NCBI RefSeq assembly: GCF_900104475.1 | Contig: NZ_FNJR01000022.1 | Location: 1-41,688 of the forward strand | Direction: 5' to 3' | Source of the DNA: Actinopolyspora xinjiangensis | Lineage (GTDB): Bacteria > Actinomycetota > Actinomycetes > Mycobacteriales > Pseudonocardiaceae | Length of the DNA stretch: 41,688 bases | In this document: piece by piece, positions 1,450 through 33,789 of the stretch | Layout of the letters: the number at the start of each line of letters is the position of its first letter | How positions within the stretch are numbered: position 1 is the first letter of the stretch | Made by a program: the position numbers and the translations under genes | The notes under the pieces: generated by a model | The model's input: the letters and a program-made list of their open reading frames with translations, nothing else | The model's database searches: none | What the model was told of the DNA's origin: nothing

Positions 1450-1563
1450 CTAGCGATCTTGCTACCCCGCCGGGTGAAATTCCCTTCCGAGGACGGCGTA
1501 CCGCGCGGGTATCGGCCAGGGTGAACAGTGACCTCGCAACGCTGGCCGTCCGTGGAGGACTCC

Positions 1564-5531: not shown

Positions 5532-6185
5532 CTACGACCAGCTTCGGTTTTGCCGCGCGCTGCGGCGGAGCCGGTAGAGCAGCATCTCCACCGCCTTGGG
5601 ACTGGTCCCCAGCTCGACGGCGATGGCAGCGTGCGAATGCCCGTTGGCGTGCAGGAGCAGCGCTCTGCGGTCCCGTGCGCCCGCGGTGCCGGGCAGTGCG
5701 GACGCCAGGTCCGAGCGGGAGAGCACGACCTGCTCCGGGTCGTGCAGCGGGCGCGGGTCGGGGACGTCGACCGCCTCGTCGAGGGCCTCGGTGGCCGGGG
5801 CGGACCCGGCCCGGTGCTCGCGCAGCCAGCGCCGGTACTCGTTGGGGAACCGCAGCAGACACTGCCCGAGGAAGTACGTGTGGAAGCTGCCGCCGCCCTG
5901 CGGGCTCCAGGAGTTCGTCGAGGATTCCAGGTGGCGCAGCGCCACGGCGACGGTGATCCCGGCCAGTTCCTCGGCCGCGTCCGGCGCGGCCAGTTCCGGC
6001 GTCCACGGCAGCCGCGCGGCGGTCATCTGTCGGACGCGGGCGAACACCACGCCGGTGACGATCCACGAGGTCATGATCCGCAGCGTGTAGTCGACCACGG
6101 CCAGGGAGTCGTCGCGCCCCTCGACTGCCGTCCGACGCCGGGACAGCTTTCGGACGTGCGGGGAAACCGTCCCTGACTGGTGCAC
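5532..6185 (-). CDS. ECF-like RNA polymerase sigma factor
   Basis: A 217-residue protein starting at GTG 6185, preceded by AAGGAGG at a good distance; an upstream ATG at 6323 lacks this support. Residues about 60-122 resemble sigma region 2 of actinomycete sigma-70-type regulators, including GGGSFHTYFLGQCLLRFPN followed by EYRRWLR. Residues about 161-210 form a region-4 helix-turn-helix: RALLLHANGHSHAAIAVELG, then TSPKAVEMLLYRLRR. There is no anti-sigma gene beside it. It sits 29 bases upstream of the ADP-ribosyltransferase gene and diverges from the DUF6603 operon, so it may control one or both. That control is inference; no matching -35/-10 pair was identified with confidence. Confidence 0.8.
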   Translation of the reverse strand: MHQSGTVSPHVRKLSRRRTAVEGRDDSLAVVDYTLRIMTSWIVTGVVFARVRQMTAARLPWTPELAAPDAAEELAGITVAVALRHLESSTNSWSPQGGGSFHTYFLGQCLLRFPNEYRRWLREHRAGSAPATEALDEAVDVPDPRPLHDPEQVVLSRSDLASALPGTAGARDRRALLLHANGHSHAAIAVELGTSPKAVEMLLYRLRRSARQNRSWS

Positions 6186-6471
6186 CGAGGAACCCTCCTT
6201 GACGGCGAAAACTCTTCGTGCGGAATCGGATTGCGCGCCTCCGCGCTTCTCAGTGTCTCGGTGCGGCCGTGCGCAGGGCGACAGCAGCGGGCGGTGTTTC
6301 GCCCGATGGTGCCTCGATCTCACCCCGATCCCTCTCCTCCTTGCCCCCGATCAGGTGAAGACGCCGTTGTCGCGGAGGGCGCGGCCACCGTCGCGCACTA
6401 GAACGAGGGTGAGGAGCGCGGCGTCCGCCGCACGACTCCCGGAACCAACCCCGCGCCCGAGGGGAAGGCCC
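6186..6471. promoter_or_regulatory. Divergent intergenic region between sigma factor and DUF6603 operon
   Basis: This 286-base gap separates the sigma gene from the DUF6603 operon, so promoters for both directions should lie here. The sigma ribosome site (AAGGAGG on the minus strand) is at its left edge and a GAGGGGAAGG ribosome site for the DUF6603 gene at its right edge. I see no convincing consensus -35/-10 pair. An in-frame extension of the DUF6603 reading frame through this region has no ribosome site and is not favoured. Confidence 0.45.
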
Positions 6472-9400
6472 ATGCTGACCGTCAGCCAGCTGAAGACCCG
6501 CGCCGAAACCGCACAGCAGAACAGCAAGCCGTTGGAGGTGCTTGCCGCGGAGTGGGACGGCACTCCGCTCACGACTCTGTTCAACCAGCACTTCGCGAAT
6601 GGAAAGCTGGTGTTGGGAAACGTGCGGGTCACCACCACCAACGCGGCGATCACCGTCACCGGCGCGGTCTCGCTGCCGAAGATGACCGCCTCGCTGACCG
6701 CGGAGGCGGTGTTTACCCGCAACGGCGAGCAGATTAAGGGCATAAACCTGGCGGTGACCCTGAACGCGGGGAACTGGTCGATCGACAGCGGCGGGTTCGT
6801 GGCGTCCCTCGACTTCCTGCGCAAGGCTGGTGGCACCGGAGCCGCTGCCTTCTGTGACAAGGCGTTCCTGCTGTTGTGGGCGGGCACCGGGAAGGCCGAG
6901 TCCGACGCCGCGATCGCGTGGGCGCAGGTCGAACTCAGCGTGTTCGGGAAGTCGGTACGGCTGGACCTGGTGCGTGTGGGTGCGCTCTATGCGCTGACCG
7001 CGACGTCCTCGCAGCTTGGCGTTCCGCTCAACGACGGCCTGAAGTCGTTGCGGAGACTGCCTTTCGTCGGCACTCCCGAGAACGGTGAGACCGCGTGGCA
7101 GCTTCCCTCGGGCCTGACCCCGTCGGGGCCGAAGATCCAGGACATCCGCATCGTCGTGGACAGCACGAAGAAGACCGTGCGCAGTGCCGTCGTGACCGTG
7201 TCGCTCGGAGTGGGGTGGAAGGTCGTCGACGGGCACCTGGAGATCAGCCAGGCGAACGCGTCGGTGTCGGTCCTCCCCAAGGCCCTCGGCAAGTCCGTCA
7301 TCTCCCTGTCGCTTACCGGAACCGCCGTCCTCCCGAGCTTGGGCCACCTGGCGGTCGACGTCGCGGTGTCCCTACCGGACCTGAGGCTGTCGGGGAAGTT
7401 CCGGGCCAACACGCCGCAGCCCATCAGCGGGGAGGCGGCCGCCCGGCTGACCGAACTCGGCATCGCTCAACCGAAGTCCGCATCCGGCGCGCTGTGGGCC
7501 GACCTCAAGCGCGATCGCACCTCGTTTGGCCTCTGGCTGGCCCTGGCAGGAACCTGGCAGCTCGATCTGGGCGGCGGCAAGAAGATCACGATCTCCGACT
7601 CCGGGGTCGAGTTCCACCGCCGAGGCGGCACATGGGCGTTGGCCGTACGCGGGGTGGCGGCGATCGACGACAAGTCTCTGCACTTCGACGCCTCGGCGCA
7701 GGCCGACAAGACCGTGCCCTGGCGGCTGCGGGGCGAGGTCCATGGACTGGCCTTCAGCGGCTTCGCGACGTGGCTGAAGAACCAGCTCGACGTCGACGTC
7801 CCCGACGCGATCAGCCGGCTCGCGCTGCGCGAGGTGGCGTTGGTCGTCGAGGTCACCCAGCAGACCCGCAGGGCCGCTTTCGCCTGCGCCGCGGAATTCC
7901 CGGTCGGTTCGGCGATGGGCGAGCTCGCCGTCACCATCGGAGTCGGCGCGAGCAAGCGGAGTGGTGCGTTCAATGCCGGGGCCGTGCTCACCGTGGAACG
8001 GCCCGACGGCGAACGCTCCATGCGGTTGCGCGGCCGCGTCGTGAAGGAGAACGACGAGGTGCGCTTCCGCGTTGACTGGACGGTCAGCCGCTCGGGTTTC
8101 TCGTTGGCCGAACTGGCCAAGCTCCTCGGCGTCGAGCTTCCCGCGGAACTCGCCCAGTTGGTTCCTGTGATCAACTCGGCGTGCCTGGTGCACCGGCGCG
8201 ACACCAAGCGGAAGAAGTCGTCCCTGGCCTTCGTGCTGAAAACCTCGAAGACCGAGACCGTGTTCGCGTCGGTGACCCACGACACCAAGAGCGCGTCCGC
8301 GCTGGTCGCCCAGGCGGCCGTGGACCTGTCGATGTCGGCGCTGCCCGTCGTGGGGCCGCAGATCCCGCCCGGGGCGGCCCGGCTCAGGGGGATCGGTGCG
8401 GTGCGGGTCTCGGACCTGCTCAAGCCGAACGATCCGCTGCGCAAGGCGTTGACAGCGGTGCTGGTGAACTCGAGGGTGACGCTGCCCGAGGCGGCGTGGC
8501 AGGCGGAGGTGACGGTCGGCCTCGACGTCGAACTCGCCGGGAAGTTGCAGTCCTTCCTGATCCCGTTCAAGAGCCATCCGCGGGAGCTGTCCGGCGGGCA
8601 GGTCGAGGAGTACACCAGCGACGGCCTCGAACCTGCCGACGTCGTGCTGGCACCCCGCGACGTCCCGGAGCGGACGGACATGCCTCCGACGACGGTCGTG
8701 TGGACGAAGGTCGACCGCACGATCGGGCCGCTGCGCATGGCGCGCGTTGGCCTGGGGTATTCAACCGGGACCGTCTGGTTGCTGATCGACGCCGCGGTCA
8801 GCCTCGGGGGTGTGACCTTCCAGGCGCACGGCCTGGGGCTCGGTGTCGGCATCAAGGAGCCGCACCCGGTCACCGGTGCGTTGGACGGACTCGGCCTGGC
8901 CTGGTCCCAAGGCCCCGTCCAGGTCTCGGGAGCCGTGCTGCGCCGAGCGGCCCCCAAACCCTACACCCTGATGCTCGCCGGTGGCTTCACCGTGCGCACG
9001 CCCCGCATCGCGGTCGCCGCGGCGGGCGCGTACTTCGACGGGCCCCGCGGCGTGTCGTTCTTCCTGTTCGGAGAGGGAACGGGGCTCAAGATCGGCACGC
9101 CGCCGGTGTTCGTCGAGGGATTGTGCGGCGGGTTCGGCTACAACAGCGCGGTCGCGGTGCCGGCGGTCGACCAGATCGGTGATCACCCCATGGTCGCTGG
9201 GCTCACCGATCCGTCGAAGTTCCCCGTCAAGGACGGGCCGCTGAAGATCCTGGAGTCACTCGGCCGCGTCGTGCGACCCCAGCCCGGGGAGATCTGGTTG
9301 GCGGCGGGGATCGACCTCACCGCCTTCGAGTTCGTCAAGGCCCGCATTCTGCTGGCGCTGCAGTTCGGGTCCGACTTCACGCTGATGATGCTCGGACTCG

Positions 9401-10878
9401 CCACCGCGCGTTTCCCGAAGGACCCGCGTGGCGGGAGCGGCGCCGTGGTCAAACCCATCGCCCAGCTCGGGTTGGCGGTGCGGGCGCTGTACCGATCGTC
9501 GACCGGCGAGCTGTCGCTGTCCGGTGGGTTCACCCGCGACTCGTACCTGCTGCACCCCGACTGCCGGGTGGAAGGCGACTTCGCGCTGTGCACGTGGGTC
9601 GGTCCGTCCCCGCACACCGGTGACTTCGTCGTTACGTTCGGCGGATACCACCCGAAGTACCGCGCACCGAAACACTACCCCGTCGCACGCCGGATCGGCG
9701 TGCGCTGGGCGGTCAACGCGGAGACCCAGATCCGTGCCGCGTGGTACGCCGCGCTCACCCCGGCGGCGTTCATGTTCGGCGGTGAGCTGCACGTTGATTT
9801 CAACGCCTCCATCGCGCACGCCTGGCTGGACGCGAAACTGGACGCGCTGATCCAGTGGCAACCGTTCAGCTTCGAGGTCGCCCTCGGCCTGCGGGCGGGA
9901 GCGGAGCTGCGCAAGGGATTCAACCCGCGGGTCGAGGTGGGCGTCGACCTCACCGTCTGGGGCCCGCCCACCGGCGGCGTCGCCGTGGTGCACCCTCCGA
10001 TCGGGCCGGACTTCCACATCCGGTTCGGCGCCTCCGACCGCCCGGCGAGAGCCCGGTGGCTGGGGTGGGCCGACTTCCACGACAAGGCGCTGGCGAAGCA
10101 GCAGGTGCGTCTGGTACCGACGCACGGGCTGCTGTCCGAGCAGCGCAGCACGCCCGGCACTCAACCGGAGAAGTGGTCACTTGCCCAAGGCGGTTTCACG
10201 CTCGAACTGCGTGCTCCGACACCTATCACCGACGCGAAGGTGTCCACATCGGTCTCACAGACCACTTCTCTCGGGCTGTCGAACGGGGGCAAGGCCCACA
10301 TCCGGCCCATGGGCAGCACGCAACTCTCGGCTACGCACACCATCACGCTCCACCGCAAGACCAACGGCCAGGACGAGGTCGTCAACCCGGTCCCCGTGGG
10401 AGGGTCGAAGTGGACTTTCGAAGCGATCAAGCTGGCGGTACCCGCGAGCCTGTGGGGCGAGCCGCTGGACAAGCCCAGCGCAGTCCCCGATGTCGGTCCC
10501 GGCAAGGAACTGCTGTTGAGCCGACTCGTCGGGGTGCGGATGATCGCACCGCCGCCGAAGTTCGGCGGGACGCGGGGGACGGTGTCACCGGAGGACTTCG
10601 GCATCAAGGAGATCACCGGCGACAAACCGGCCCTGCCGGTCAAGTCCGGGGCCGCACAGAAGGGACCGAAGCCGACCCGACCCGGCACCGTACGCACGAC
10701 CCTCTCGACGGGCCTGGCGGGCACCCTGAACGACCGGTCCGCTCTGCACGGCGTGCTGAAGGCGCACGGCCTGCTCCCGACCGGGCTCGCCGACACCGCC
10801 GCCGCGCTGCCGGACTGCGCCGCCCGCGCGTGGTCCTACCTCGCCGCCGACCCCATGATCGTGCAGACCGGACAGTGA
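6472..10878 (+). CDS. Large DUF6603-type protein of unknown function
   Basis: A 1468-residue protein, start chosen at ATG 6472 because GAGGGGAAGG precedes it. It appears to belong to the DUF6603 group of very large bacterial proteins (recognition from memory, mainly from the C-terminal two thirds, e.g. GLGLGVGIKEPHP, FVEGLCGGFGYNSAV, SFEVALGLRAGAEL). The protein is dominated by amphipathic beta strands. It contains at least two similar modules about 114 residues apart (around 428 and 542): a short helix with L-x-x-L spacing, a V-x-x-P turn, then strands. There is no signal peptide and no clear membrane helix. The tail (about 1370-1468) is Pro/Lys-rich, then helical. It is the first gene of a tight operon, with the next start seven bases after its stop. 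Function is unknown; a structural or particle-forming role is inference. Confidence 0.75.
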   Translation: MLTVSQLKTRAETAQQNSKPLEVLAAEWDGTPLTTLFNQHFANGKLVLGNVRVTTTNAAITVTGAVSLPKMTASLTAEAVFTRNGEQIKGINLAVTLNAGNWSIDSGGFVASLDFLRKAGGTGAAAFCDKAFLLLWAGTGKAESDAAIAWAQVELSVFGKSVRLDLVRVGALYALTATSSQLGVPLNDGLKSLRRLPFVGTPENGETAWQLPSGLTPSGPKIQDIRIVVDSTKKTVRSAVVTVSLGVGWKVVDGHLEISQANASVSVLPKALGKSVISLSLTGTAVLPSLGHLAVDVAVSLPDLRLSGKFRANTPQPISGEAAARLTELGIAQPKSASGALWADLKRDRTSFGLWLALAGTWQLDLGGGKKITISDSGVEFHRRGGTWALAVRGVAAIDDKSLHFDASAQADKTVPWRLRGEVHGLAFSGFATWLKNQLDVDVPDAISRLALREVALVVEVTQQTRRAAFACAAEFPVGSAMGELAVTIGVGASKRSGAFNAGAVLTVERPDGERSMRLRGRVVKENDEVRFRVDWTVSRSGFSLAELAKLLGVELPAELAQLVPVINSACLVHRRDTKRKKSSLAFVLKTSKTETVFASVTHDTKSASALVAQAAVDLSMSALPVVGPQIPPGAARLRGIGAVRVSDLLKPNDPLRKALTAVLVNSRVTLPEAAWQAEVTVGLDVELAGKLQSFLIPFKSHPRELSGGQVEEYTSDGLEPADVVLAPRDVPERTDMPPTTVVWTKVDRTIGPLRMARVGLGYSTGTVWLLIDAAVSLGGVTFQAHGLGLGVGIKEPHPVTGALDGLGLAWSQGPVQVSGAVLRRAAPKPYTLMLAGGFTVRTPRIAVAAAGAYFDGPRGVSFFLFGEGTGLKIGTPPVFVEGLCGGFGYNSAVAVPAVDQIGDHPMVAGLTDPSKFPVKDGPLKILESLGRVVRPQPGEIWLAAGIDLTAFEFVKARILLALQFGSDFTLMMLGLATARFPKDPRGGSGAVVKPIAQLGLAVRALYRSSTGELSLSGGFTRDSYLLHPDCRVEGDFALCTWVGPSPHTGDFVVTFGGYHPKYRAPKHYPVARRIGVRWAVNAETQIRAAWYAALTPAAFMFGGELHVDFNASIAHAWLDAKLDALIQWQPFSFEVALGLRAGAELRKGFNPRVEVGVDLTVWGPPTGGVAVVHPPIGPDFHIRFGASDRPARARWLGWADFHDKALAKQQVRLVPTHGLLSEQRSTPGTQPEKWSLAQGGFTLELRAPTPITDAKVSTSVSQTTSLGLSNGGKAHIRPMGSTQLSATHTITLHRKTNGQDEVVNPVPVGGSKWTFEAIKLAVPASLWGEPLDKPSAVPDVGPGKELLLSRLVGVRMIAPPPKFGGTRGTVSPEDFGIKEITGDKPALPVKSGAAQKGPKPTRPGTVRTTLSTGLAGTLNDRSALHGVLKAHGLLPTGLADTAAALPDCAARAWSYLAADPMIVQTGQ

Positions 10879-10885
10879 GGACGCC

Positions 10886-13162
10886 GTGACCGACGCATCG
10901 ACGACCGTCGAACACCACACCGCACTCCACGAGAATCTGTCGGACGGCGAGTTCGTCACGACCACGCGGTACCAGATCTCCTTGCACGACAATTACGTCC
11001 CGGTCGTGACCGCGGGCGAGTACACCGTCAAGGTCGACCACCGGGTGACGACCGACAAGGCCGGTCCGCAGCAGGGGCAGCTCGACACGACCCTGAACGG
11101 GGAGAAGTCGTTCTCGGTAACCGCACCGCGGTTCGGCATCGACCCGGGCGAGGTCTTCGCCGCGTACCCGCCTCCCGCCGCCCGGGGCAACTTCGAGACG
11201 GCCGTGCCGCACCTGACCCTCAGCCGGGCGAGTCTGCCGTGGGAGCGGACGTTCACCACCCAGGACCGCACGATCCCGTGGGTCGCGTTGCTGCTGCTCA
11301 AGCCGGACGAGGTGGCGACGGTCCCGCCGTCCGGGGATCTGGTGGTGTCGCGTCCGGTCAAGGAGCTCACCGGGGTCAATGACAATGTGGAACTCCCCGA
11401 GCTCGGCACGATCCCGCCCCCGATCGTCGACGGCACGTGCCGCACGCTCGACCTGGACAAGGACGCGGTGGGCCGCCTGCTGCCGACGAAGACCGAGCTG
11501 CCGTACCTGGTGCACGCGCGCGATGTCGGGGTCGTCGGCCAGCGTTCCCGCGACGAGAGGTGGGCCAAGGGGCGCTACTGCGTGTTGCTGGGTAACCGGC
11601 TCGCCCGCCGCAATACCCGCTACACCGCCGCACTCGTCTCGTTGGAAGGACACAGCCGGTGGAAGGTCCTCGGCGGGGACAAGGAACCGTCGAAGCCGGT
11701 GCGCTTCGTGGTGCTGTGGTCGTGGTCGTTCGAGACCGACACCAGCGCCGAACCGCACTTCGGCGCCCTGGCCGCTGCGTTGGCGAAGGACGCCAAGGAC
11801 CACGGCGCGACGCTGCGGCTGCGCACCTCGATCCCGTCGGGCGGACACGGCACCGAAGCCCGCGAGCGCATCGAGTGCGGCTATGTCCCGGTCCTGCACC
11901 GGCTGCCGGGCGGGGAGGACGCCCTCGGCTGGTACCGCGGACCGCTGACCCCCGAACCGGCGCGAACGCTTCCGACGTCCGCACCACCCGCGACCGCTTC
12001 GGAAGCGCTGATCTATTCCCAGAAGTACGGCACGTTCGACGTCAGCTACGCGAGCGCGTTCACCCTCGGACGGCTCATGGCGGTCGCCGACCAGCAACTT
12101 TCCCGCTCACTGGTCCGGTTCCGGGCCGACGCGCTTCGGGCGGTGCAGCGAGCCACCGCGCGGACGCTGGGGCAGGCAGAGGACGGCACCGAACACGCGG
12201 TCGACCGCTTCACCGGACTCGTCGAGAACGGTCTCGGCAAGCGTCTCACCGACGAACTGAAGAAGCTGTCCAACAAGCCGACCGAGAATGTCGTGGAAAG
12301 CACCTCCGAGCAACCTCCCACGACGACCCCGGTGGGGCAGCTCATCGCCGATGCCCTCACGGGCGCGGGCGGAGCCGCCCTGGTGGACGCCTGCGCCCGG
12401 GCGCTGGACGAGGTCGTCGACAGCCACCTGCCGACCCTTGGCGAAGCCGGGCTGGACGCCAAGAAGTTGTTCGACTCGCTGCCGTTTCACCACTTGGTCC
12501 CAGATGCCGCACTACTTCCCCCGGAAGCGCTGCGCTTCTGCTATGTCGACAACCAGTGGATGGCGCACGTGGTCGCCGGGGTCGCGAACCTCGGTGTGAG
12601 CGGCGACGTCGACGCCGCGGCATCCAGCGCGCTCCTGGACGCCACCACCAGAGGGCTCGGGGCGGCGTGCGGGATGCTGTTGCGTTCCCGCATGGTGCAG
12701 CACTGGCCCGCCCTGATCGTCGAAGCCAGCGAATCCGGGAAGACGGTGGGAATGCGTCCACGACGACCCGCGCCGGACGTGCTGCTGGTGCTGTTCGAAT
12801 CCACACCGGACAAAGTCGTGATCAGGGAACCGGCCCACGCCCTCAACTTCGGACTCGACATCCCCGTCGGCGCCGACAACGGCAAGCTCTACCTGCGCAA
12901 TATCGCCAACGACGACCCCGTGCCGGGAAAGAAGCTCGCCCAGCCCAACGACAGGACCCTCGCCGACATCCGCGTACTGCTGCGCACCGAGGACTCCGAC
13001 GTCCTCAACCTCACCAACGGAGGCAAGGACAAGGCGCTCGTTCCGGCCATGGCTGCGGCGCTGAAGAAGACCGAGCAGCACCCCGCACCGAAGATCACCT
13101 CGGCCCTGCTGGCGCTGCAACTCGCCAACAGCCCCAAACAGTTGACTCTGACCGCCCAGTGA
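10886..13162 (+). CDS. Uncharacterised 758-residue protein of the DUF6603 operon
   Basis: It begins at GTG 10886, seven bases after the DUF6603 stop, with AGGA upstream. I do not recognise the family. The N-terminal third is strand-rich and contains a motif running FGIDPGEVFAAYPP and HLTLSRASLPWERT. A middle part (about 380-520) is Ala/Arg-rich and helical. A later segment reads LLPPEALRFCYVDNQWMAHV, then VAGVANLGVSGDVDAAA. No signal peptide, membrane helix or catalytic motif is evident. The tight coupling to its neighbours suggests that the products act together, perhaps in one complex (inference). Confidence 0.7.
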   Translation: MTDASTTVEHHTALHENLSDGEFVTTTRYQISLHDNYVPVVTAGEYTVKVDHRVTTDKAGPQQGQLDTTLNGEKSFSVTAPRFGIDPGEVFAAYPPPAARGNFETAVPHLTLSRASLPWERTFTTQDRTIPWVALLLLKPDEVATVPPSGDLVVSRPVKELTGVNDNVELPELGTIPPPIVDGTCRTLDLDKDAVGRLLPTKTELPYLVHARDVGVVGQRSRDERWAKGRYCVLLGNRLARRNTRYTAALVSLEGHSRWKVLGGDKEPSKPVRFVVLWSWSFETDTSAEPHFGALAAALAKDAKDHGATLRLRTSIPSGGHGTEARERIECGYVPVLHRLPGGEDALGWYRGPLTPEPARTLPTSAPPATASEALIYSQKYGTFDVSYASAFTLGRLMAVADQQLSRSLVRFRADALRAVQRATARTLGQAEDGTEHAVDRFTGLVENGLGKRLTDELKKLSNKPTENVVESTSEQPPTTTPVGQLIADALTGAGGAALVDACARALDEVVDSHLPTLGEAGLDAKKLFDSLPFHHLVPDAALLPPEALRFCYVDNQWMAHVVAGVANLGVSGDVDAAASSALLDATTRGLGAACGMLLRSRMVQHWPALIVEASESGKTVGMRPRRPAPDVLLVLFESTPDKVVIREPAHALNFGLDIPVGADNGKLYLRNIANDDPVPGKKLAQPNDRTLADIRVLLRTEDSDVLNLTNGGKDKALVPAMAAALKKTEQHPAPKITSALLALQLANSPKQLTLTAQ

Positions 13163-13184
13163 GCCGCGCACCGGAAGGAAGACG

Positions 13185-16100
13185 ATGACCGCGCACCCGG
13201 ACCCGCTCCTGGTACCCACCCAGGTGGACGCGCTCGCGCTCACCGAGAAAGTCAAGGACAACGACCCCTTCTACCGCTGGAGTCTGGACTTCAGGCCGGG
13301 GAAGCGGCGGAATCCCGAGGGCGAGCCGTTCACCTCCAAGCCTCCGAAGAAGGAAGACGTGGGGGTGTTCCTCCAGTGGCGCATCCCGGAGGCGCTGAGT
13401 CGGGGCCGCATCGACCTCAGCGGTTCCGGAGATGGGGACTCGATCACGTACCCGCCGGCGCCGAACCGGTGGCTCGTCGTGCGTTACGCCCGCATGACCC
13501 GGACCAGCGCACCCAGTGCGACGGGGTGGATCGTGCAGAGCGACCACGTGGGCAAGACCAGGAAAGAGGGCACCTCGCCGTACCTGCGCGACGGCAAGGT
13601 CATCTACATCGGACGCAAGCACAAGCTCGACGCCGGAAGCCCGTGGAAGGAGCCCGGATCCAACGACGACGTGCTCCGGCCGTTGACCGCGGTGGGGCCG
13701 GACCTGCCGACCTTCGCGGCGTTCCAGCCGTACAACCAGAACGTCTTCTCCTTCCACGACCCGGCCACCGGGCTTCCCGACACCGGTGTGCTCAGCTACC
13801 TGGTCGTCGGCTGGCACTCGCGGACCGGCGACGACGTGCTGCACGCCGACAACCTCGGCAAGCTCCTCGCCTTCTACGCCCGGACCGGGAAGACGGAGGC
13901 GCAGAAGTTCGTCGAGGCGCTGGAGGTCCTGAACTGGGAGGTATCCGCCCCGCAGCCGGTCACCCGGCGCATGCTGTGTGTGGGGACCGTGCTCGGGATG
14001 GAGTGGGACCGCACGAACGGCCGGCCGAAGTCGAAACGTCCCGGCATGGCCTCGTCCCTGGTCAATATTGGGGTCGGGCACAGCGCCACGGACGCCTTGG
14101 ACGCGCTCGTCAAGGACTGCACGCTCGCTCCTGGCCGGTCGGAGTCCGAAGCCGATCGCAAGAACCTGTTCACCGCGTTCCACTCCGGCAAGCTCGACGA
14201 GCTGGACACCGTGCTGGACGGTTCGGACTCCACGCTGCGTTCCGCGCTGCACGCCGGCTGGTTCCGCAGGTCGTCCGGCGGCCACGTCTGGCAGGTCGTG
14301 GAGCGGGACGCACCGAAAGCCGAGCCGGTGACGCTCACCGATGAGGAGGCCACCACCGAACGGGAACTGCTGCGCAAGCTCAACGATGCGCAAGCGCATC
14401 GCGACCAGGCGGCCCGCGAGGCCGGTTCGCTCCAGGGACGACTGGCCGACCTGTGGTGGGCGTGGGGACTGGCGGCCGAGAAATCGCAGTTCCGCACCAA
14501 GGCGCAGCCCCACTTCAGCACCACTCAGGAGACCTCGCTGCGTAAGCGGGTCGCGAACGCGGCCAACGCGCTCGCCGGATGGGACGACAAGGTCGCCAAA
14601 CAGGCCGCGGAGCTGCGGCAGAAGCTCAGGCCCGGCCGAGCGCTCACACTCCTGCCCCTGGACCCGTTCCACGAACCTGACGATCCGACGGTGCTGCTGT
14701 ACGGCGACGGCGTCGACTCGGGTACCGAGGTAAGCTCGGTCGCGCCGCTGCGGGTTCGGCGGCCCGGCGAGCTGGTCACCTCTGGGACGTTCGACGGCAA
14801 GCAGTTCTCCCCGCCGTCAACACTGCCGAAACCGGGGTCCTTCGACGCGCTCAAGGACGTCGTGGAGACCACGACTACCGCGTTGCCCTGGACCGTGTTC
14901 GGCAAAGTCCTGGGCGAGTTCGCGACCCTGGAGGCAGCCGCCGCGCACGCCCTGGGCCTGCCCGAGGGAGACGAGCGGCGGACGAAGTTCGCCGAGAAAT
15001 TCGCGCCCGCGACGGGCCAACGGCTCCCGGAAAGCACCCGCCTGTGGGAACAGGCGTGGGAGCCGCTGTTCCTCCTCTGGAAGGCCGATGTCCACGCACT
15101 GCCGTACGCCCCGGACGGCACTCAGTACTGGGAGTTCGCACGCGGCCACCTGAAGCTGAAGAACCACGGCGACCTGGCGAAGATTCCCGCATTGTCCGCG
15201 TCGGGCCGCTGCTGCATCGCCCCGCTGCCGACATTCGCCGTGCAGCGGCGGGTAGACAGCCACATCGAGACCTTCGGCGACACCGCCGGGCAGGACTTCG
15301 CGGAGCTGCGCACGAGGGCGGGCTCGTGGCCGATGGTCGCCCAGCGCCTGGACGGGCTGAACGCCTGGCTCACCCGGCGCGCACCTGGGTTCCTGGACCC
15401 GGGCGCCGGACCCGAGGGCATGACCTGCGGGCGCCGGCCGGTCGTGCCGCGCCCCGACTGGGGTGCCACGACCTCGGTGTACCAGGCTGTGCGGGCCGCC
15501 CAGCTGGCGTTCTCCCACGTCGTCCTCGTCGACCGCTTCGGGCGGGCGGCGCCGGTGGTGCTCAACGCCGAGCCGGAGAAGTTCCGGCCGCGCTCGTCGT
15601 CGAGCATGTCCTCGGATGTGATCGCCCCGACCACGAACAAGTACCGGTATGTGCACCTGCCACCGCGCCTGCCGCAACCGGCCAGGCTCCGGTTCGACCT
15701 GATCTCGCACCGCACCGTCGACGTCGTCGACCCGAACACCGACCCCGACTTCACCGGCGACACGGCGATCTGCGGGTGGGTGATGTCGACCGGTGGTGGC
15801 TCCACCGACCGCCGCGACCTGGTCGTCTACGACCCGCAGGGACGGGGGCTCGGCCAGGCACACCTCATCGGACCACCCGACCACCGGGCCGTGACCTGGG
15901 TGCCGTTGCCGGGATCGCCCTGGCAGCAACCGGCCGACCTGTTCGACAACCCCGCGTTCGCCGAGTCCTACCCCAACCTCGCTGCCTTCCTGCACGAACT
16001 GGTCGACAAGGACGCCGACAAGCGGGCGAGCGGACAGGTCGGCACGACGACCGCGAAACCCCAGCGGTTGCGGGAACTGCTCATGGCCGTCAACCACAGC

Positions 16101-16928
16101 CTGCTCACCACCGCGCCGCCGCGTGACGACGACGAAGCGCTGCCGTCCCTGCTGGTCGGCAGGCCGCTGGTGCTCCTGCGGGCCCGGCTGCGACTGGAGC
16201 TGGACGCGACACCGCTGCCGGACGCCACGTGGGACTCGCTGCTCGCCGCGGCCCAGCACGACCACAAGCCCCAGAACCACCCGCTGTGGAACGTCAATTG
16301 GCGGGTGCACCTGGGCAACGAGGTTGACCCGCGCGACGGGCTGGTCGGCTACTACACGGCGGCGACGCTCGGAACGCCGCGCACCGACTACACCCGACTG
16401 CACGTCGGCAGCACCCACGGATTCACCTCGCCCGAGTACCTCAAGCCCGGCGTCGACGGCAGCGCGCTGGCCCTGCCCGCGCGTCCCACGACCACGGACC
16501 GCAACGAGTCGTCCGCGGTCTCCCGCTACGTCACGTTGCTGGTCGACCCCTGGTCCGCCGTCCACGCCTACACCGACATCCTCCCGGCCAGCGCGCTGAA
16601 ACTACCCGAGCAGACCGTGCGGGCCGTGCTGAAACGCATGCGCATCGGGATCCCGGCGGGCCCGGTACTCGCCGGGAACAGGCGCATCAGCGAGCCCGAG
16701 TCCGCCAGGGACACCGTCGTGATCCCGTTGTCCGCGCGTCTGGGGGAGACCGGCATGTCCGGCGTCTGGTGCGAGCGCCGGGCACAGGGAGCCTGGGGCG
16801 TTTCCGGGGTCACCGGAGCCGACGCCTTGGCGCACCTCGCGGATCCGAGCCCAGCGGCGCGCAACGGTTTTCTCACGGTGGTGCCGCATGACGAGCAGCT
16901 GACGAGCACGACGGAGGAAGACACATGA
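13185..16928 (+). CDS. Uncharacterised 1247-residue protein with central coiled coil
   Basis: It starts at ATG 13185 with GGAAGGAAG upstream, 22 bases after the previous stop. The N-terminal part includes VFLQWRIPEALSRGRI, PPAPNRWLVVRYAR and FQPYNQNVFSFHDPATG, followed by LSYLVVGWHS. Residues about 385-485 are rich in charged heptads (ELLRKLNDAQAHRDQAAREA and later KQAAELRQKL) and probably form a coiled-coil hairpin. The remainder is mixed and Pro-rich. No signal peptide or known enzyme motif is seen and I cannot assign a family. Its stop overlaps the next start by ATGA, indicating translational coupling. Its size and coiled coil fit a structural component, but this is inference. Confidence 0.7.
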   Translation: MTAHPDPLLVPTQVDALALTEKVKDNDPFYRWSLDFRPGKRRNPEGEPFTSKPPKKEDVGVFLQWRIPEALSRGRIDLSGSGDGDSITYPPAPNRWLVVRYARMTRTSAPSATGWIVQSDHVGKTRKEGTSPYLRDGKVIYIGRKHKLDAGSPWKEPGSNDDVLRPLTAVGPDLPTFAAFQPYNQNVFSFHDPATGLPDTGVLSYLVVGWHSRTGDDVLHADNLGKLLAFYARTGKTEAQKFVEALEVLNWEVSAPQPVTRRMLCVGTVLGMEWDRTNGRPKSKRPGMASSLVNIGVGHSATDALDALVKDCTLAPGRSESEADRKNLFTAFHSGKLDELDTVLDGSDSTLRSALHAGWFRRSSGGHVWQVVERDAPKAEPVTLTDEEATTERELLRKLNDAQAHRDQAAREAGSLQGRLADLWWAWGLAAEKSQFRTKAQPHFSTTQETSLRKRVANAANALAGWDDKVAKQAAELRQKLRPGRALTLLPLDPFHEPDDPTVLLYGDGVDSGTEVSSVAPLRVRRPGELVTSGTFDGKQFSPPSTLPKPGSFDALKDVVETTTTALPWTVFGKVLGEFATLEAAAAHALGLPEGDERRTKFAEKFAPATGQRLPESTRLWEQAWEPLFLLWKADVHALPYAPDGTQYWEFARGHLKLKNHGDLAKIPALSASGRCCIAPLPTFAVQRRVDSHIETFGDTAGQDFAELRTRAGSWPMVAQRLDGLNAWLTRRAPGFLDPGAGPEGMTCGRRPVVPRPDWGATTSVYQAVRAAQLAFSHVVLVDRFGRAAPVVLNAEPEKFRPRSSSSMSSDVIAPTTNKYRYVHLPPRLPQPARLRFDLISHRTVDVVDPNTDPDFTGDTAICGWVMSTGGGSTDRRDLVVYDPQGRGLGQAHLIGPPDHRAVTWVPLPGSPWQQPADLFDNPAFAESYPNLAAFLHELVDKDADKRASGQVGTTTAKPQRLRELLMAVNHSLLTTAPPRDDDEALPSLLVGRPLVLLRARLRLELDATPLPDATWDSLLAAAQHDHKPQNHPLWNVNWRVHLGNEVDPRDGLVGYYTAATLGTPRTDYTRLHVGSTHGFTSPEYLKPGVDGSALALPARPTTTDRNESSAVSRYVTLLVDPWSAVHAYTDILPASALKLPEQTVRAVLKRMRIGIPAGPVLAGNRRISEPESARDTVVIPLSARLGETGMSGVWCERRAQGAWGVSGVTGADALAHLADPSPAARNGFLTVVPHDEQLTSTTEEDT

Positions 16929-18022
16929 CCGACGCACCGGCACCCGTGTGGTGCACTCTCGAACAGCCCGACGGGCCGGCCGTCACCAGTGGTGAGGCCG
17001 CGTTGCGCGCTGTGGTCAGCAACGTGCTCGACCGGCCCTTCACCTGCCGTCGGATCACGATCGACCTACCGGTCGGGCCCGACGGCGGTGCGTTGACCGA
17101 CTCGCCCCATCGCATCCGCGTCGTGGCATTGGACGAGGGATGGACGATCGAGCCGGGACAACGGCCGGGGAGCCTCACCGCTGTTCCATCCTCTTCCCCG
17201 GTGACCCTTGCCCCGGGGGAGTCGATCGGCATCGTGCTGGCGGGCATCGCGACCAACGAGGTGGCCGGGGCTGCCGAGGTGGTCACCACCGTCGTCGGCG
17301 GGGTCGACGGCGAGACCGTCGAGCACTCCCGCACTCACGAGGTCGGGAAGATCAAACCCGAGGTCCGCATCGACCACTTCGCGGCGAACCCGCAGAGCGT
17401 GGAATACAAGGGGAAGATCCAACTCAGCTGGGAGGGAGCGGCCACCGCGCCGAGCTTCTACCTGCAGGTCGGCCAGAAGGTGCCCTTCGAGCTGACCGAG
17501 CGCAACGGCCTCAAGAACAACAACGGCAGCTACACCTTCCCGTTGAACCAGGAACTGACGACCAACACGCCGATCCGTCTGCGCGCGGTCAAAGGCGAGG
17601 CGGAGAACGGGGCGATCACGCTCGTCACCGTCAACAAGGGCGATGTCACCGCCGGTGACCTCACCGTGAACGGCGTCGCCACCCTGCTGCGGGGTCCGAG
17701 CACGTTGACGCTCGACAAGAAGGTGTGGTCCAGCAAGGAGGTACCAACGGACGGGATGATCGCGGCGGCCGCGCGGACCGGCGACGCGAACAAGAACGCC
17801 GTCTTGCAGATCTCGGTGTTGCGCAAGGGGAAGCTCCGGGACGACACCGAACTCCACCGCATGACGGCGACGAGCACACACGTCGACCGGACCGAGAACG
17901 TGCTGGTGCCGGTGCCCAAGGGGACCGCGGTGCGCATCACCAAGGTCAAGGAACCGGACAGCTCCGTGTTCACCGCCACCTGGTTCCCCATCGGATCCGG
18001 CGACTTCGAGGTGAACACCTGA
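16925..18022 (+). CDS. Unknown protein with Ig-like domain, paralogue A
   Basis: A 365-residue protein whose ATG overlaps the preceding stop (ATGA). It has an N-terminal strand-rich domain (CRRITIDLPVGPDGGALT), a middle Ig/CARDB-like segment (VRIDHFAANPQSVEYKGKIQ, then LSWEG) and a C-terminal strand domain ending VPVPKGTAVRITKV and ATWFPIGSGDF. The same three-part order occurs in the next gene (18022-19164) with low but recognisable similarity, so the two look like an old tandem duplication. No signal peptide or membrane segment is visible. The function is unknown. Ig-like domains usually mediate binding, so an adaptor or adhesive part of the operon's product is possible. Confidence 0.65.
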   Translation: MTDAPAPVWCTLEQPDGPAVTSGEAALRAVVSNVLDRPFTCRRITIDLPVGPDGGALTDSPHRIRVVALDEGWTIEPGQRPGSLTAVPSSSPVTLAPGESIGIVLAGIATNEVAGAAEVVTTVVGGVDGETVEHSRTHEVGKIKPEVRIDHFAANPQSVEYKGKIQLSWEGAATAPSFYLQVGQKVPFELTERNGLKNNNGSYTFPLNQELTTNTPIRLRAVKGEAENGAITLVTVNKGDVTAGDLTVNGVATLLRGPSTLTLDKKVWSSKEVPTDGMIAAAARTGDANKNAVLQISVLRKGKLRDDTELHRMTATSTHVDRTENVLVPVPKGTAVRITKVKEPDSSVFTATWFPIGSGDFEVNT

Positions 18023-19164
18023 TGTCCACTCCAGCCCGACACGACACCGAACGGCACAAGTGTCCGCTCACGCTCACGTGCAAAGTGACCAGCAACCCGC
18101 ATCCCACGAACAACGGCAAACCTGCCGACCTGCGGGTGGAGCTGTCGAACTCGGGCAGTGACTACAAGACGGACAAGGTCACAGTCGCGATTCCGGTGGG
18201 GGCCGGTACGGATCACCTCACCAACGATCCGAACTCCGGGGAACTGGAGGAGACGGACGTGCCCCCGGGGTGGAGCGTGAGTCCGGAGGAGAACAAGACG
18301 CGTTACGTCGTTGAACCGGAGAACGGCACGTTCGGTACGGGGCAGCGGGTGGTGTTCACGGTCAAGGGCCTGAAGGTGAACCGTGAGTACGGGACTTCCT
18401 ACGTCCCCGTCATCGAGAGCTCCGAAGGCGATCCGCAACCGTGCTCGTGGGCGGTTGCCAAAGGACCGCAGAAGTTCTTCTTCCGCGGCTTCGAACCCCG
18501 GAATATCGTCGTCCGAGCAGGGATGGCCACGGACCTGGTGTGGTCCAAGTCGAACCGGCCACCCGAGGGGTGCACGGTGTCCTACCGGTTGCACTACGAC
18601 CTGGAACCGGAGGGTGTCGACGTCACCGACAGCCAGGCCCACAAGGTGAGGCCGCACCACGACACCAGCTACCGGCTCGTCGCGACCATCGACAAGAACG
18701 GGACGAAGACCCGTCCGGTGTTGAGTACGTTCGTGATCGTCTCCCACCCCGACGTCATCACGACCAACCTCACCGTCGAACGCGGAGTCGGCTGGTTCGG
18801 ACACCGCAATCAGAACACAGTGGACATAGTCCCGGAGAGCAGCGCGGAGAAAGTGAGCCCACCCGCGCCGACGGACGGACTCCTCATGGTCTCCATAGAC
18901 GCCGAGGTGGGAGCGTCCTCGCTGCCGACGGTCGGCGTGAGCCTGCTCCCGAAAACATCGGAGGAGCCATTGCACTCCACCACCATCGAGGCCAAGGAGG
19001 ACCAGATCGACAACGGGTTCATGCGCGCACCCCGGCTCGTGCTGCCCATCCCGAACGGGCACCGGGTGCGGTTCCGGCACGACAAATCCGTCACCGGGGT
19101 CAAGCCGTATCGGATCCGCCTGGATTGGCAGCCGATCGGGATCGGTTCGCTGGCGGGAGCATGA
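18022..19164 (+). CDS. Unknown protein with Ig-like domain, paralogue B
   Basis: A 380-residue protein starting at ATG 18022, whose first base is the last base of the previous stop. The reading frame is open further upstream inside the previous gene, but only this start makes sense. Segments align with paralogue A: KVTVAIPVGAGTDHLT in the N-terminal domain; FFFRGFEPRNIVVRAG and TDLVWSKS in the Ig-like middle; VLPIPNGHRVRFRHDK and RLDWQPIGIGSL at the end. It lacks a signal peptide and enzyme motifs. It sits in the middle of the DUF6603 operon and is probably co-translated with its neighbours. Confidence 0.65.
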   Translation: MSTPARHDTERHKCPLTLTCKVTSNPHPTNNGKPADLRVELSNSGSDYKTDKVTVAIPVGAGTDHLTNDPNSGELEETDVPPGWSVSPEENKTRYVVEPENGTFGTGQRVVFTVKGLKVNREYGTSYVPVIESSEGDPQPCSWAVAKGPQKFFFRGFEPRNIVVRAGMATDLVWSKSNRPPEGCTVSYRLHYDLEPEGVDVTDSQAHKVRPHHDTSYRLVATIDKNGTKTRPVLSTFVIVSHPDVITTNLTVERGVGWFGHRNQNTVDIVPESSAEKVSPPAPTDGLLMVSIDAEVGASSLPTVGVSLLPKTSEEPLHSTTIEAKEDQIDNGFMRAPRLVLPIPNGHRVRFRHDKSVTGVKPYRIRLDWQPIGIGSLAGA

Positions 19165-19178
19165 CGAGGGAGCGGGAA

Positions 19179-19859
19179 ATGAGCAGTACCAAGCTGATCG
19201 ACGCCTTCATCATTCGCGGAAACGCGGAACCGGACACGGCCCACCTCGTCGACGCCGACTACCACGTCATCAGGCGGTGGGTGCGCGACGACAAGCTCGA
19301 ACGGTGCTATGACAACGGTGGCGAGCAAGAGTGCTACCCGCCCGGTGGCACCGCGTACGGAAGTCTGTGGCGGGACTTCAACGGCAAGTTCGCCAGTCCA
19401 CACGTCCTGCACGCGACCTACATGAACAACAACAGGCCGCAGTTCGTCACCTGGAACTCGTCGGCGAAGTGCTGGCAGGTGACATACCCCCACACCAACG
19501 CCGACCCCTGGTACAACAACAAGAACAACCAGGCCAAACCGACCCCCCAGGTCAGCGACCTGACGAGTGTCTTCGAGGGGTTCCCAGGGAAGGACGCCAA
19601 CGCGGGGGTCACCGCGGCCGTGGAAGTGCCGCCGGGGTGGGTCATCTTCTTTTTCGGAGTGAAATACCGGGCGTTCAAGGCCAACGACAAGGACGCGGGC
19701 AAGCCGCGCCAACTCGACGGCATCAGCACGGTGCAGGCGGCGTTCCGGGGCACGTGGAGCAACACCAAGAAGGTCGTCCACCTGCACGACGGTACGGAGT
19801 GGAAGTGCTTCACGGTCGTCAACACCGGCACGAAGGCGGTCGAACTCAAGAAGGCGTGA
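19179..19859 (+). CDS. Unknown 226-residue protein of the DUF6603 operon
   Basis: The start at ATG 19179 has GAGGGAGCGGG upstream; an alternative ATG at 19161 overlaps the previous stop as ATGA and would add six residues. The protein is rich in Trp, Tyr, Asn and Lys (VIRRWVRDDKLERCYD, ADPWYNNKNNQ, PPGWVIFFFGVKYRAFK). I recognise no domain and no signal peptide. The composition, with many aromatic and polar residues in strand-like runs, suggests a small all-beta protein. Confidence 0.65.
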   Translation: MSSTKLIDAFIIRGNAEPDTAHLVDADYHVIRRWVRDDKLERCYDNGGEQECYPPGGTAYGSLWRDFNGKFASPHVLHATYMNNNRPQFVTWNSSAKCWQVTYPHTNADPWYNNKNNQAKPTPQVSDLTSVFEGFPGKDANAGVTAAVEVPPGWVIFFFGVKYRAFKANDKDAGKPRQLDGISTVQAAFRGTWSNTKKVVHLHDGTEWKCFTVVNTGTKAVELKKA

Positions 19860-19899
19860 ACCGCGGCGGCGATGCCGCGCCGACCAGAACGGGTACGCG

Positions 19900-20571
19900 A
19901 TGGCTGTGTGGATCCAGAGCCGTACTTGGCCGCAGGCGGAGGACTCGGGCTTCGGCGGTTCGTTGACCGAGGCCGACCAGAAACTCAACAAGGAGGTCCT
20001 GGACGAGGTTCGTAAACTCCTCGGCGCGTGGTCCGCTGCGAAGAAGAAGACATTGGTGCACCTCGGGATCGGCGCTGGTAACCCCGGCGACGGATGGGGA
20101 AACCCTTCCCACGACTACCGCCCGGAGGTGCTCGAACGGCAGAAGTGGCCGCCATTCCTCGACGACGCGGTCGAGCAAGGCTACAGCGTCATCTCCCTGG
20201 TGCACAATGTGATCGGTCAGAACTGGGCGCAGGTCACCAAGGGGGAAGGTGCGGTCCAGCTCGAGGTCAACGCCCGCTTCCCGCTCAAGGGCAGTGCGGG
20301 CGGCGTCCTGGATAAGCAGGTGTGGACCGAGATCGAGACCGTGGTGAAGCAGGCCGATCGGGTCGTCGTCGCGAATTGCGTGACCAACCAGCACCACCGT
20401 GGCGTGGTGGAACTGGCTCAATCGCGGAACAGGGCCCACTGTTACCTGCTCTCCTACGCGCAGACCGGGACCGAGGAAGTGTGGTGGCGCATGTCGGCGA
20501 AGTTCGTCTTCCACAACCAGGAGACTGATCTGTCTACGTTGGGCGAGCTGTTCTACGACCTGCAGGCATGA
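19900..20571 (+). CDS. Unknown 223-residue protein of the DUF6603 operon
   Basis: It starts at ATG 19900, 40 bases after the previous stop, without a strong ribosome site. It opens with a helical segment (LTEADQKLNKEVLDEVRKLL). It then has an alternating strand/helix pattern: TLVHLGIGAGNPGDGWG, a YRPEVL turn, YSVISLVHN, and RVVVANCVTNQHH. This resembles an alpha/beta nucleotide-binding-like fold, but no family signature is secure. There is no signal peptide. It is the last cytosolic-type product before the secreted lectin gene. Confidence 0.65.
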   Translation: MAVWIQSRTWPQAEDSGFGGSLTEADQKLNKEVLDEVRKLLGAWSAAKKKTLVHLGIGAGNPGDGWGNPSHDYRPEVLERQKWPPFLDDAVEQGYSVISLVHNVIGQNWAQVTKGEGAVQLEVNARFPLKGSAGGVLDKQVWTEIETVVKQADRVVVANCVTNQHHRGVVELAQSRNRAHCYLLSYAQTGTEEVWWRMSAKFVFHNQETDLSTLGELFYDLQA

Positions 20572-20605
20572 CGTCGTTGTTCCGTCGAGAACGAAGGGAA
20601 GTCCG

Positions 20606-21148
20606 ATGATGATGATCCGTGATGGCCTGGCTGCTGTAGCCGTGCTCGCCGGGCTGGCCGTGGCATGCCCGGCGTCGGCCCAACCGGCCGCCCCGGAGAT
20701 CTACCTGATCAAGAGCGTGGGTATCCCGGGCAAGTGCCTCCGCGACGAGGGCAAGGACCCGCAGGTGAACATGCGACTGCGAACCTGCGACTCGTCCGAC
20801 AAGCTCCAGCAGTTCGAGCGTCGCCCCGCTGGCGGGGACTATTACTACTACATCAACGTCGGCTCCGGGCAGTGCCTGGACCATAACGGGAAGACGGCGC
20901 TGTACGGGAAGAAGTGCAACTGGGGCGAATACCAGAAGTGGACCGACAGGGACAAGTCCGGGAGCGTGTTCCACCTGGCGGGTAAGACCGGCAAGTGCAT
21001 CGAGGGCGGCGGCGACCAGGACAGCTGGGGATTCGTACGCACCTGCAAGACCGGTGAGACGAAGCAGCGGTGGCAGCGCGAGCCGGTCAAGACCGGGGCT
21101 TCCGAGTCCGAGGGGTCCTGGAACCCGGTACTGGAGCGAATCGAATGA
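20606..21148 (+). CDS. Secreted ricin-B-type (beta-trefoil) lectin-like protein
   Basis: A 180-residue protein starting at one of three consecutive ATG codons (20606, 20609, 20612), with AAGGGAAG upstream. Residues 1-25 form a Sec signal peptide (charged start, LAAVAVLAGLAVA core, ASA cleavage site). A Cys in the core (LAVAC) makes a weak lipobox, so lipidation cannot be excluded. The mature part has three repeats each ending in a Q-x-W/F-like element (QQF, QKW, QRW) and carrying paired Cys residues near GKCL, GQCLD and GKCIE. This is the pattern of the ricin B / R-type lectin trefoil that binds sugars. It is the last gene of the operon, 34 bases after the previous stop. A receptor-binding role for the operon's product is inference. 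Confidence 0.8.
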   Translation: MMMIRDGLAAVAVLAGLAVACPASAQPAAPEIYLIKSVGIPGKCLRDEGKDPQVNMRLRTCDSSDKLQQFERRPAGGDYYYYINVGSGQCLDHNGKTALYGKKCNWGEYQKWTDRDKSGSVFHLAGKTGKCIEGGGDQDSWGFVRTCKTGETKQRWQREPVKTGASESEGSWNPVLERIE

Positions 21149-21801: not shown

Positions 21802-21874
21802 TGGAGCTGACGGGGCTTGAACCCATGCCCCTCTGAGTACCAGTCAAGTGCGGTACCAACTGCGCCACAGTCCT
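21802..21874 (-). tRNA. Degenerate tRNA-like sequence, anticodon position GGT (Thr-like)
   Basis: Read on the minus strand, the 73 bases fold as a cloverleaf. The D arm is GCGC-AGTTGGTA-CCGC, with one mismatch in the stem. The anticodon arm has loop CTGGTAC, placing GGT at positions 34-36. The T arm is perfect: ATGGG-TTCAAGC-CCCGT. The acceptor stem has mismatches at pairs 1-72 and 4-69, and the anticodon stem has one mismatch. CCA is not encoded directly after the discriminator base. This suggests a decayed tRNA, an element-borne tRNA or an old attachment site, more than a working housekeeping gene. Confidence 0.5.
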
Positions 21875-22139
21875 TTTCATGCGGATGCTGGCCGCGTCCA
21901 CGATTGCCCGGGAGGCCAAGCCAGTTGGCCGGAACCGTCCGGCTCGTCCAGCACCGCTCGGTGCAACCTGCCCTAGAGTCATTGGCGTATCCAGCGTTGA
22001 AACCAACGATGCGTTCCCCGGTGTACTTATCCAGAAACTGGGCGGCAGATGATGTCAAGCACAGTCGTTGGTGACCACGAACACGATCGCGGTGAACACT
22101 GCCCGTGCTTCAGCTCCGGGGGCTGGCCATCACCACTAC

Positions 22140-23550: not shown

Positions 23551-23614
23551 TCCGAGCTCTCCGGAGGGTCTGTCTGGTAGCTCTTGATTGTGGGGTGCTG
23601 GTAGGCCTGCGGGT

Positions 23615-25988: not shown

Positions 25989-26245
25989 GATTGTTTCCTT
26001 CCGGTTGTGGAGCGGTATGTGTGTAGGACGGCTAATGGGCCGATGACCGGGCTTGTGGTCGAGAGGGTGGCAGTACGGTAAGCGAGCGGGAGCCGTACCT
26101 GGTCCGCCCTCGGGGCGAACGGTGTTCGAAAGTGAACCGGAGTTGTTCCCAAACACGAGGGCCAGTTGAACGTCCACTCAGCCGAACCCACGGTATCCCT
26201 GTCAAACCACTTCGATTCGAGTGGGCATGTCCACTGTTCTCCGGA

Positions 26246-28966: not shown

Positions 28967-28969
28967 GTC

Positions 28970-33787: not shown

Positions 33788-33789
33788 GA

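Follow-up and report, generated by a model that had tools for sequence, protein, structure and literature searches.

A conserved three-giant DUF6603 operon of Actinopolyspora xinjiangensis and a possible carrier role for its products

The DNA analyzed in this study was a stretch of 41,688 nucleotides from Actinopolyspora xinjiangensis (contig NZ_FNJR01000022.1, positions 1 to 41,688; hereafter the window). It contains a run of eight genes, g1–g8, that begins with the gene of a giant DUF6603 protein. An initial annotation had taken the run for an eight-gene operon that may be an undescribed system. The genes were compared with other DUF6603 loci (given as L numbers), and the enzyme genes found ahead of the DUF6603 gene in relatives were investigated. 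The eight frames are as follows:

6472..10878, + strand: g1, DUF6603 protein, 1468 residues
10886..13162, + strand: g2, second giant core protein, 758 residues
13185..16928, + strand: g3, third giant core protein, 1247 residues
16925..18022, + strand: g4, Ig-like accessory protein, 365 residues
18022..19164, + strand: g5, Ig-like paralogue of g4, 380 residues
19161..19859, + strand: g6, locus-specific protein, 232 residues
19900..20571, + strand: g7, locus-specific protein without Pfam match, 223 residues
20606..21148, + strand: g8, ricin-B lectin with an export-type N-terminus, 180 residues

All eight frames between 6472 and 21148 were free of internal stops, as had been claimed, and third-position GC was 0.84–0.90 in 8/8. 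The five very tight junctions were also recovered: gaps of 7 bases (g1–g2) and 22 bases (g2–g3), and overlaps of 4 bases (g3–g4), 1 base (g4–g5) and 4 bases (g5–g6). The g6–g7 and g7–g8 junctions were looser, with gaps of 40 and 34 bases. In a Pfam/NCBIfam scan of the eight products, the cut-off was reached only by g1 (PF20248, DUF6603) and g8 (ricin-B lectin). The DUF6603 match covered residues 747–1244 of g1 at E 3.9e-124, with 415 bits against a curated cut-off of 27, which confirmed the type assigned to this protein. g8 matched ricin-B at E 1.2e-12 and had a hydrophobic N-terminus typical of export, consistent with its description as a secreted lectin.

g1 matched no Pfam family other than DUF6603, and g2 and g3 matched none at E ≤ 0.1. 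Beyond themselves, g2 had 50 and g3 had 58 homologues at E ≤ 1e-3. Compared by sequence with solved proteins, g1 gave nothing at E ≤ 1 singly and nothing at E ≤ 0.1 as a profile; g2 and g3 likewise gave nothing meaningful in either form (g2 singly, four matches at E 0.4–0.7; g3 profile, one coiled-coil chain at E 0.08). The AlphaFold2 model of g3 residues 1–1200 was confident (pLDDT 85.5, pTM 0.85), and a Foldseek search of the PDB and a viral library with it returned no match at E ≤ 1e-3. Some relatives of g2 or g3 carried binding-type domains (discoidin, LamG, DNRLRE and IPT/TIG). When 190 core homologues were screened with a simple hydrophobicity rule, 3 had a signal-peptide-like start and 2 a membrane-segment-like stretch. 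The ratio of nonsynonymous to synonymous substitution rates was 0.09–0.57 in 15 comparisons of core genes from five close pairs, taken as stop-to-stop frames that may include untranslated sequence. Such ratios indicate that the core genes are under purifying selection. g3 homologues also occurred on eight large plasmid records (H1–H8) of Streptomyces, Embleya and Paenibacillus. A 2285-residue open frame at L135:5539-12393 (−) matched both the g1 and g2 profiles and is a possible g1–g2 fusion.

Named genomes were scanned with a DUF6603 alignment. The scan gave 354 candidates and 343 confirmed stretches, of which the best 80, closest to the window, were retained. L038/L039 and L050/L052, terminal duplicates on one chromosome, were counted as four loci; at these, Streptomyces olivoreticuli carries DUF6603 operons near both chromosome ends, apparently duplicated. 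The 80 named loci came from Actinomycetota, Cyanobacteriota, Bacteroidota, Pseudomonadota, Acidobacteriota, Chloroflexota, Bacillota, the SAR324 cluster and candidate division KSB1. In a profile search, g2 was found in 78/80, g3 in 75/80 and all three giants in 74/80. Four of the six misses lay on contigs of 6.1–8.0 kb (L060, L066, L084 and L087); L068 was without g2 and L081 without g3. L087 is the KSB1 locus and L068 the Bacillota locus, and the full three-gene set was present in 7/9 groups. Two gene orders were found, g1-g2-g3 as in the window, and g3 ahead of g1-g2. The latter was accompanied by a LamG-type protein in 14 loci.

Since the 80 named loci were those closest to the window, an even sample of the window's family was added. 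DUF6603 was found in 22/249 genomes, at 24 loci. All 24 loci, the window included, had a three-gene core: the window's type (type I) accounted for 9 and a sister type (type II) for 15. In type II, g2 has a homologue (hhalign probability 94.7 over 185 columns), and the third giant is a different protein. Some of the loci counted here had been used to build the type II profiles (g2 from L121 and L126; the third gene from L121, L122 and L126), and for five loci of type II, detection of the DUF6603 gene was by Pfam search only. In a sample of the phylum, DUF6603 was found in 9/296 genomes. Of the window's genus, 9 further genomes were sampled and none carried it, so the operon was probably acquired recently.

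Fungal homologues were listed for g1, g2 and g3 as individual proteins. Three of four fungal DUF6603 proteins (2265–2339 residues) start with an MBL-fold domain (E 1.9e-13 to 3.4e-22), and P0188 is without it. This is the same domain as that of the separate MBL gene ahead of g1 in bacteria. The family is patchy yet wide, with nine phyla or candidate phyla plus fungi. In text searches of 5.39 million open papers, DUF6603 and PF20248 gave no match, and the three-giant system is apparently undescribed. In some loci (L117:11559-13103 (−), by eye; L119:11443-13035 (−); L022; L023), the N-terminal part of the DUF6603 protein is encoded, or seems to be, in a frame of its own that precedes the rest.

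g4 and g5 had been annotated as Ig-like paralogues, and the comparison agreed. They were 22.7% identical (blastp E 6e-5), and one family profile matched both (g4 at E 5.8e-48, g5 at E 7.1e-52). This family was found in the fetched stretch of 50/80 named loci (51 loci overall), and 6 proteins carried it as a fusion at the C-terminal end of g3. Thus the 758-, 1247- and 365/380-residue families, whose recurrence beside DUF6603 had been proposed as a check, were all found again.

g6–g8 behaved differently. In a search confined to the frames of L010–L100 and L117–L139, g6 and g7 had no homologue at E ≤ 0.1 and g8 had two marginal matches only (E 0.016 and 0.046). Hemopexin-like proteins come after the Ig genes in L117, L118 and L027, and the Pfam Hemopexin family was matched by the L027 and L117 proteins. 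Compared with three hemopexin-like proteins alone by phmmer, g6 gave E 0.006–0.1, marginal at most. g6–g8 look locus-specific by these comparisons, and g8 is probably a separate accessory gene. The suggestion of an undescribed conserved system therefore held for g1–g5, which on sequence evidence are members of one, and failed for the eight-gene extent, since g6–g8 had no convincing counterpart in other loci.

The annotated boundaries also left out a position upstream, the enzyme slot, which in relatives is part of the functional unit. An MBL-fold gene stood directly ahead of g1 on the same strand in 24/91 stretches scanned. An EEP-type gene occupied the slot in 7/91, although in one case it was a 62-residue fragment at the end of a contig. 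L057 and L061 had another MBL-like gene, recognized by motif. The HxDxDH-type motif was retained in 21/23 MBL proteins and the EEP motifs in 6/6. Other slots held subtilases (L029 by Pfam; L131 by solved relatives; L134, L132 and L048 by similarity), an M64 peptidase (L014), PhoD-like proteins (L015 and L122, below the Pfam cut-off; L121 and L137, by similarity; one with a peptidoglycan-binding domain), a XopG-like protein (L049, below cut-off) and trypsin-like proteins recognized by motif (L123, L129 and L136). HExxH-like proteins were seen by eye in or near the slot of L039, L055 and L119. In L117, an eCIS_core protein was encoded two genes ahead of g1, with a 514-residue gene between. By a hydrophobicity rule similar to that applied to the core homologues, signal-like starts were found in 1/23 MBL, 1/6 EEP, 2/16 other slot proteins and 0/18 further ones. 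The flagged MBL and EEP starts look like a mis-set start and a core strand, and the 2 other slot proteins are the L029 and L048 subtilases, which seem to be exported. In the Bacteroidota loci L066, L088, L096 and L097, the slot was held by a family of 222–279 residues, whose L096 member had no Pfam match.

The slot enzyme was related to the N-terminal part (N part) of the DUF6603 protein. L051 and L029 were 92.7% identical over 9.9 kb, beginning inside g1. Before that point, g1 was 30–36% identical in five 100-column windows, which make up most of the first 500 residues, and the upstream genes were an MBL gene and a subtilase gene, respectively. Pairs of loci with DUF6603 domains at least 80% identical were then compared. 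There were 22 such pairs, of which 20 were examined and 16 were informative; L050/L055 (short N part) and three pairs with L044 (cut by a contig end) were left out. Upstream sequence was scored as like when tblastx gave at least 60% over at least 112 residues, and the N part was scored on the first three windows with enough residues. With like upstream sequence, the N part was 49–89% identical in 7/7 pairs, although the like sequence of L028, L032 and L036 is possibly an opposite-strand gene. With unlike upstream sequence, it was 23–48% identical in 8/9 pairs. Three of those 8, all with L043, join two mutually unlike MBL genes. The pairs of both kinds have members in common and are not independent.

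The same association was seen across the wider set. The N part was long enough in 60/89 loci, 36 of them labelled with an enzyme class, several by hand. The nearest labelled neighbour had the same enzyme class in 34/36 loci by N part and in 26/36 by DUF6603 domain. The two N-part misses were L049, the sole member of its class, and L051. On the DUF6603 domain tree, the switch between MBL and EEP needs at least 3 changes across well-supported branches (57 unlabelled rows uncounted). The results suggested that, on near-identical cores, the enzyme gene and the N-terminal ~500 residues of the DUF6603 protein act as a single cassette and are exchanged together. Since distant cores agree (L024/L078, L010/L079, L029/L048 and L059/L035), beyond what adjacency would give, a functional match between enzyme and N part may also exist.

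In type II loci, subtilases and trypsin-like proteins had a common C-terminal domain of ~125 residues (10 copies in 9 proteins at 7 loci), a putative docking domain. In a search of 249 genomes, with 17 candidates scored per genome, the 10 strong matches were exactly those copies, all next to DUF6603 genes; a single weak match (E 3.5e-4) lay elsewhere in a DUF6603 genome. The absence of the domain elsewhere is the informative part, because the model was built from those very copies. Neither the type I loci nor the window yielded the domain.

In the window, g1 was at most 46% identical to the other rows of the DUF6603 domain tree. Compared with P0114, the sole close relative with a full-length N part, it was 46–63% identical in the best four 100-column windows and 19–32% before those. 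For the N part of g1, the best match was 25% identical over 624 columns, which leaves it without a close relative. The sequence that changes together with the slot enzyme in relatives corresponds to the part of g1 ahead of about residue 600, a candidate cargo adapter. The genes upstream of g1 are as follows:

1528..3320, + strand: subtilase remnant, Peptidase_S8 matches in two frames
3321..4583, + strand: frame of 420 residues upstream of g1, ATG with AAAGGA ahead, no Pfam match
4645..5502, − strand: ADP-ribosyltransferase-like gene, 285 residues, divergent to g1; PF02917 at E 1e-8, Scabin-like below cut-off
5532..6323, − strand: sigma-70 region 4 protein, divergent to g1, a possible regulator; PF08281 at E 2.8e-7

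The subtilase gene is broken or mis-sequenced, since it is read in two different frames. In blastp, each piece was similar to slot subtilases, namely those of L131, L134 and L132 (E 4e-12 to 6e-5). The ADP-ribosyltransferase-like gene had a relative at L048:3343-4338 (blastp E 2.7e-23). This relative could begin 4 bases ahead of the stop codon of g3 in another DUF6603 operon; an Ig-like gene comes next, and a subtilase stands ahead of the following g1. Because of this L048 arrangement, the ADP-ribosyltransferase-like gene and the broken subtilase are candidates for the window's own cargo. The 420-residue frame also gave no tblastn match in the loci.

Our preferred explanation, held tentatively and at a little under even confidence, is a cytosolic carrier that has g1–g5 as its core and is loaded with interchangeable and probably toxic enzymes. 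The cargo adapter would be the variable N-terminal part (~500 residues) of the DUF6603 protein, on which the enzyme would dock. The C-terminal DUF6603 domain would form a scaffold together with g2 and g3, and binding to a target surface would fall to the Ig, LamG, hemopexin-like and lectin modules. On lysis of the producer, the assembly would be set free and carry the enzyme to another cell. Exit by lysis is suggested because the three giants and nearly all slot enzymes are without signal peptides. A further step, more doubtful than the carrier itself, is that the carrier forms a class of its own, new and with no relation to phage tails or Tc toxins, with a three-giant particle, an exchangeable DUF6603 adapter matched to its cargo and binding modules aimed at other cells, in many bacterial phyla and in fungi. 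The cassette predicts which part binds the cargo, which part is scaffold and which neighbours are cargo. If the carrier explanation is true, the system would be a natural delivery device unlike known ones.

Several observations weigh against this explanation. The particle, its secretion, the toxicity of the enzymes and the interactions are predictions from gene sequences. Adjacency lets one recombination replace the enzyme and the N part without a functional link. L030/L047 keeps its N part despite unlike upstream sequence, and the MBL and EEP labels were clustered on the tree (3 changes against a mean of 6.4 in shuffles), so that exchange is not free. There was no enzyme label on 24/60 loci with a long N part, and in many loci an enzyme was not evident directly upstream; in the window, too, the + strand beside g1 carries no intact recognized enzyme. 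Two slot MBL proteins, L070:7328-8977 and L079:6922-8565, were without the metal-binding motif, with operon and core intact. The slot subtilases of L029 and L048 had export signals, which fit cytosolic loading poorly. Finally, MBL, trypsin-like and nuclease-like effectors are compatible with intracellular defence as well.

Defence of this kind is the best surviving alternative, though we regard it as unlikely. The giants would sense an invader, and the swapped upstream enzyme would be the killing effector; the logic is borrowed from STAND/NLR proteins, which exchange N-terminal effectors. The slot MBL proteins resembled the 6A-MBL and Avs1a enzymes (below cut-off) and LmuA (E 2.8e-12), and the near lack of signal peptides, the patchy spread and the fungal form are consistent with this explanation. 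However, g1–g7 matched 0 families among the PADLOC models (2023 library), no NTPase family was found in g1–g3, and of the 139 families identified in 76 neighbours, the top 25 included no defence family. The LamG, discoidin, hemopexin-like and peptidoglycan-binding domains point to surfaces, not to phage parts. If the defence explanation is true, it would be a defence system without a known core.

A lipid-handling machine is less probable still. The DUF6603 protein would form an ApoB-like, lipid-binding amphipathic beta sheet, and the enzymes would act on lipids or membranes. The AlphaFold2 model of g1 residues 269–1468 was mainly beta, with a mean pLDDT of 79.2 and values of at least 90 across slightly over half of the domain. 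The top Foldseek matches of this model were ApoB100 (E 2e-7) and outer-membrane barrels. The strands of g1 had one apolar and one polar face, with a contrast of 2.5–2.8 against 1.4–1.5 in shuffled sequences, and 0/1000 shuffles were as high. However, such alternation is expected of any beta sheet with a core face. TM-scores were 0.11–0.14 for the ten best matches and the root-mean-square deviation was 9–14 Å in the 20 best rows of a second look, so the likeness is one of arrangement only. Set against the lipid-binding beta groove of bridge-like lipid transfer or ApoB-like proteins, the model was thus similar in arrangement, without a global match. That many slot enzymes are proteases or nuclease-like proteins also speaks against this explanation.

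It is very improbable that the products form a cell-surface or developmental structure of the producer, processed by the enzymes: the Ig, LamG and hemopexin-like modules and the two subtilases with export signals would suit it, but signal-like and membrane-like segments are rare in the core homologues (3/190 and 2/190), the 9 other sampled genomes of the genus do without DUF6603, and a housekeeping structure is not expected to swap enzymes.

Two further observations concern the window beyond the operon. At 21802-24430, just past the operon, a tRNA-Thr(ggt) gene precedes a truncated Mutator-type transposase and a piece of an IS4/5-type transposase, and this region is likely an insertion hot spot. 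A run at 24780-37555 (−) encodes an ATP-grasp protein (LAL_C2), MatE, FAD-binding, 2-hydroxyacid dehydrogenase, aminotransferase and SHMT-like proteins, a second ATP-grasp protein and two unknowns. It looks like a small natural product cluster of the amino-acid-ligase kind.

The system was compared with described machines, and, in agreement with the initial annotation, no match to any of them was found. The eCIS_core (DUF4157) domain marks toxins of extracellular contractile injection systems (eCIS) (PMC8213781, PMC11297309). The DUF6603 system is like eCIS in having parts without signal peptides and variable toxic cargo, here predicted, and the L117 operon carries an eCIS_core protein. It differs in that g1–g5 have no sheath, tube, baseplate or spike family. 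Among the L010–L126 loci read for eCIS_core, the domain lay beside g1 only in L117; G407 had a weak eCIS_core fragment 11 kb from the DUF6603 gene. The contractile sheath was present in 19/27 DUF6603 genomes (8 without) against 112/249 family genomes at large, and eCIS_core in 21/27. These genome counts indicate that sheath and DUF6603 often co-occur without mutual need. An eCIS payload was rejected for the window, whose genome had 0 matches to the contractile sheath (PF04984) and 0 to eCIS_core (PF13699).

A phage or tailocin module was rejected as well, since g1–g8 matched no phage structural family in PHROGs. The single PHROGs match of g1 (E 0.005) was not structural, and g2–g8 had none. 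No phage record encoded g1.

The carrier proposed here shares features with other known systems. Like ApoB-type sheets and outer-membrane barrels, g1 is predicted to have a long antiparallel beta meander with one apolar face, but neither sequence similarity nor global superposition was found. AVAST (Avs) and Lamassu systems have an MBL-fold gene beside large proteins. The slot MBL proteins, in contrast, scored far below the NCBIfam cut-offs, and no core protein matched. Tc toxin complexes consist of three large proteins and a variable enzymatic part, which is located at the C-terminus of TcC. The DUF6603 system also has three large proteins and a variable enzymatic part, but g1–g3 have no TcA, TcB, RHS or SpvB domain, and the variable part is at the front of g1. 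In polymorphic toxins, the variable part is the C-terminal tip of the carrier. Enzyme modules, presumed toxic in the DUF6603 system, are exchanged on a conserved carrier in both cases, whereas the variable part of the DUF6603 system consists of a separate upstream gene and the N-terminus of the carrier.

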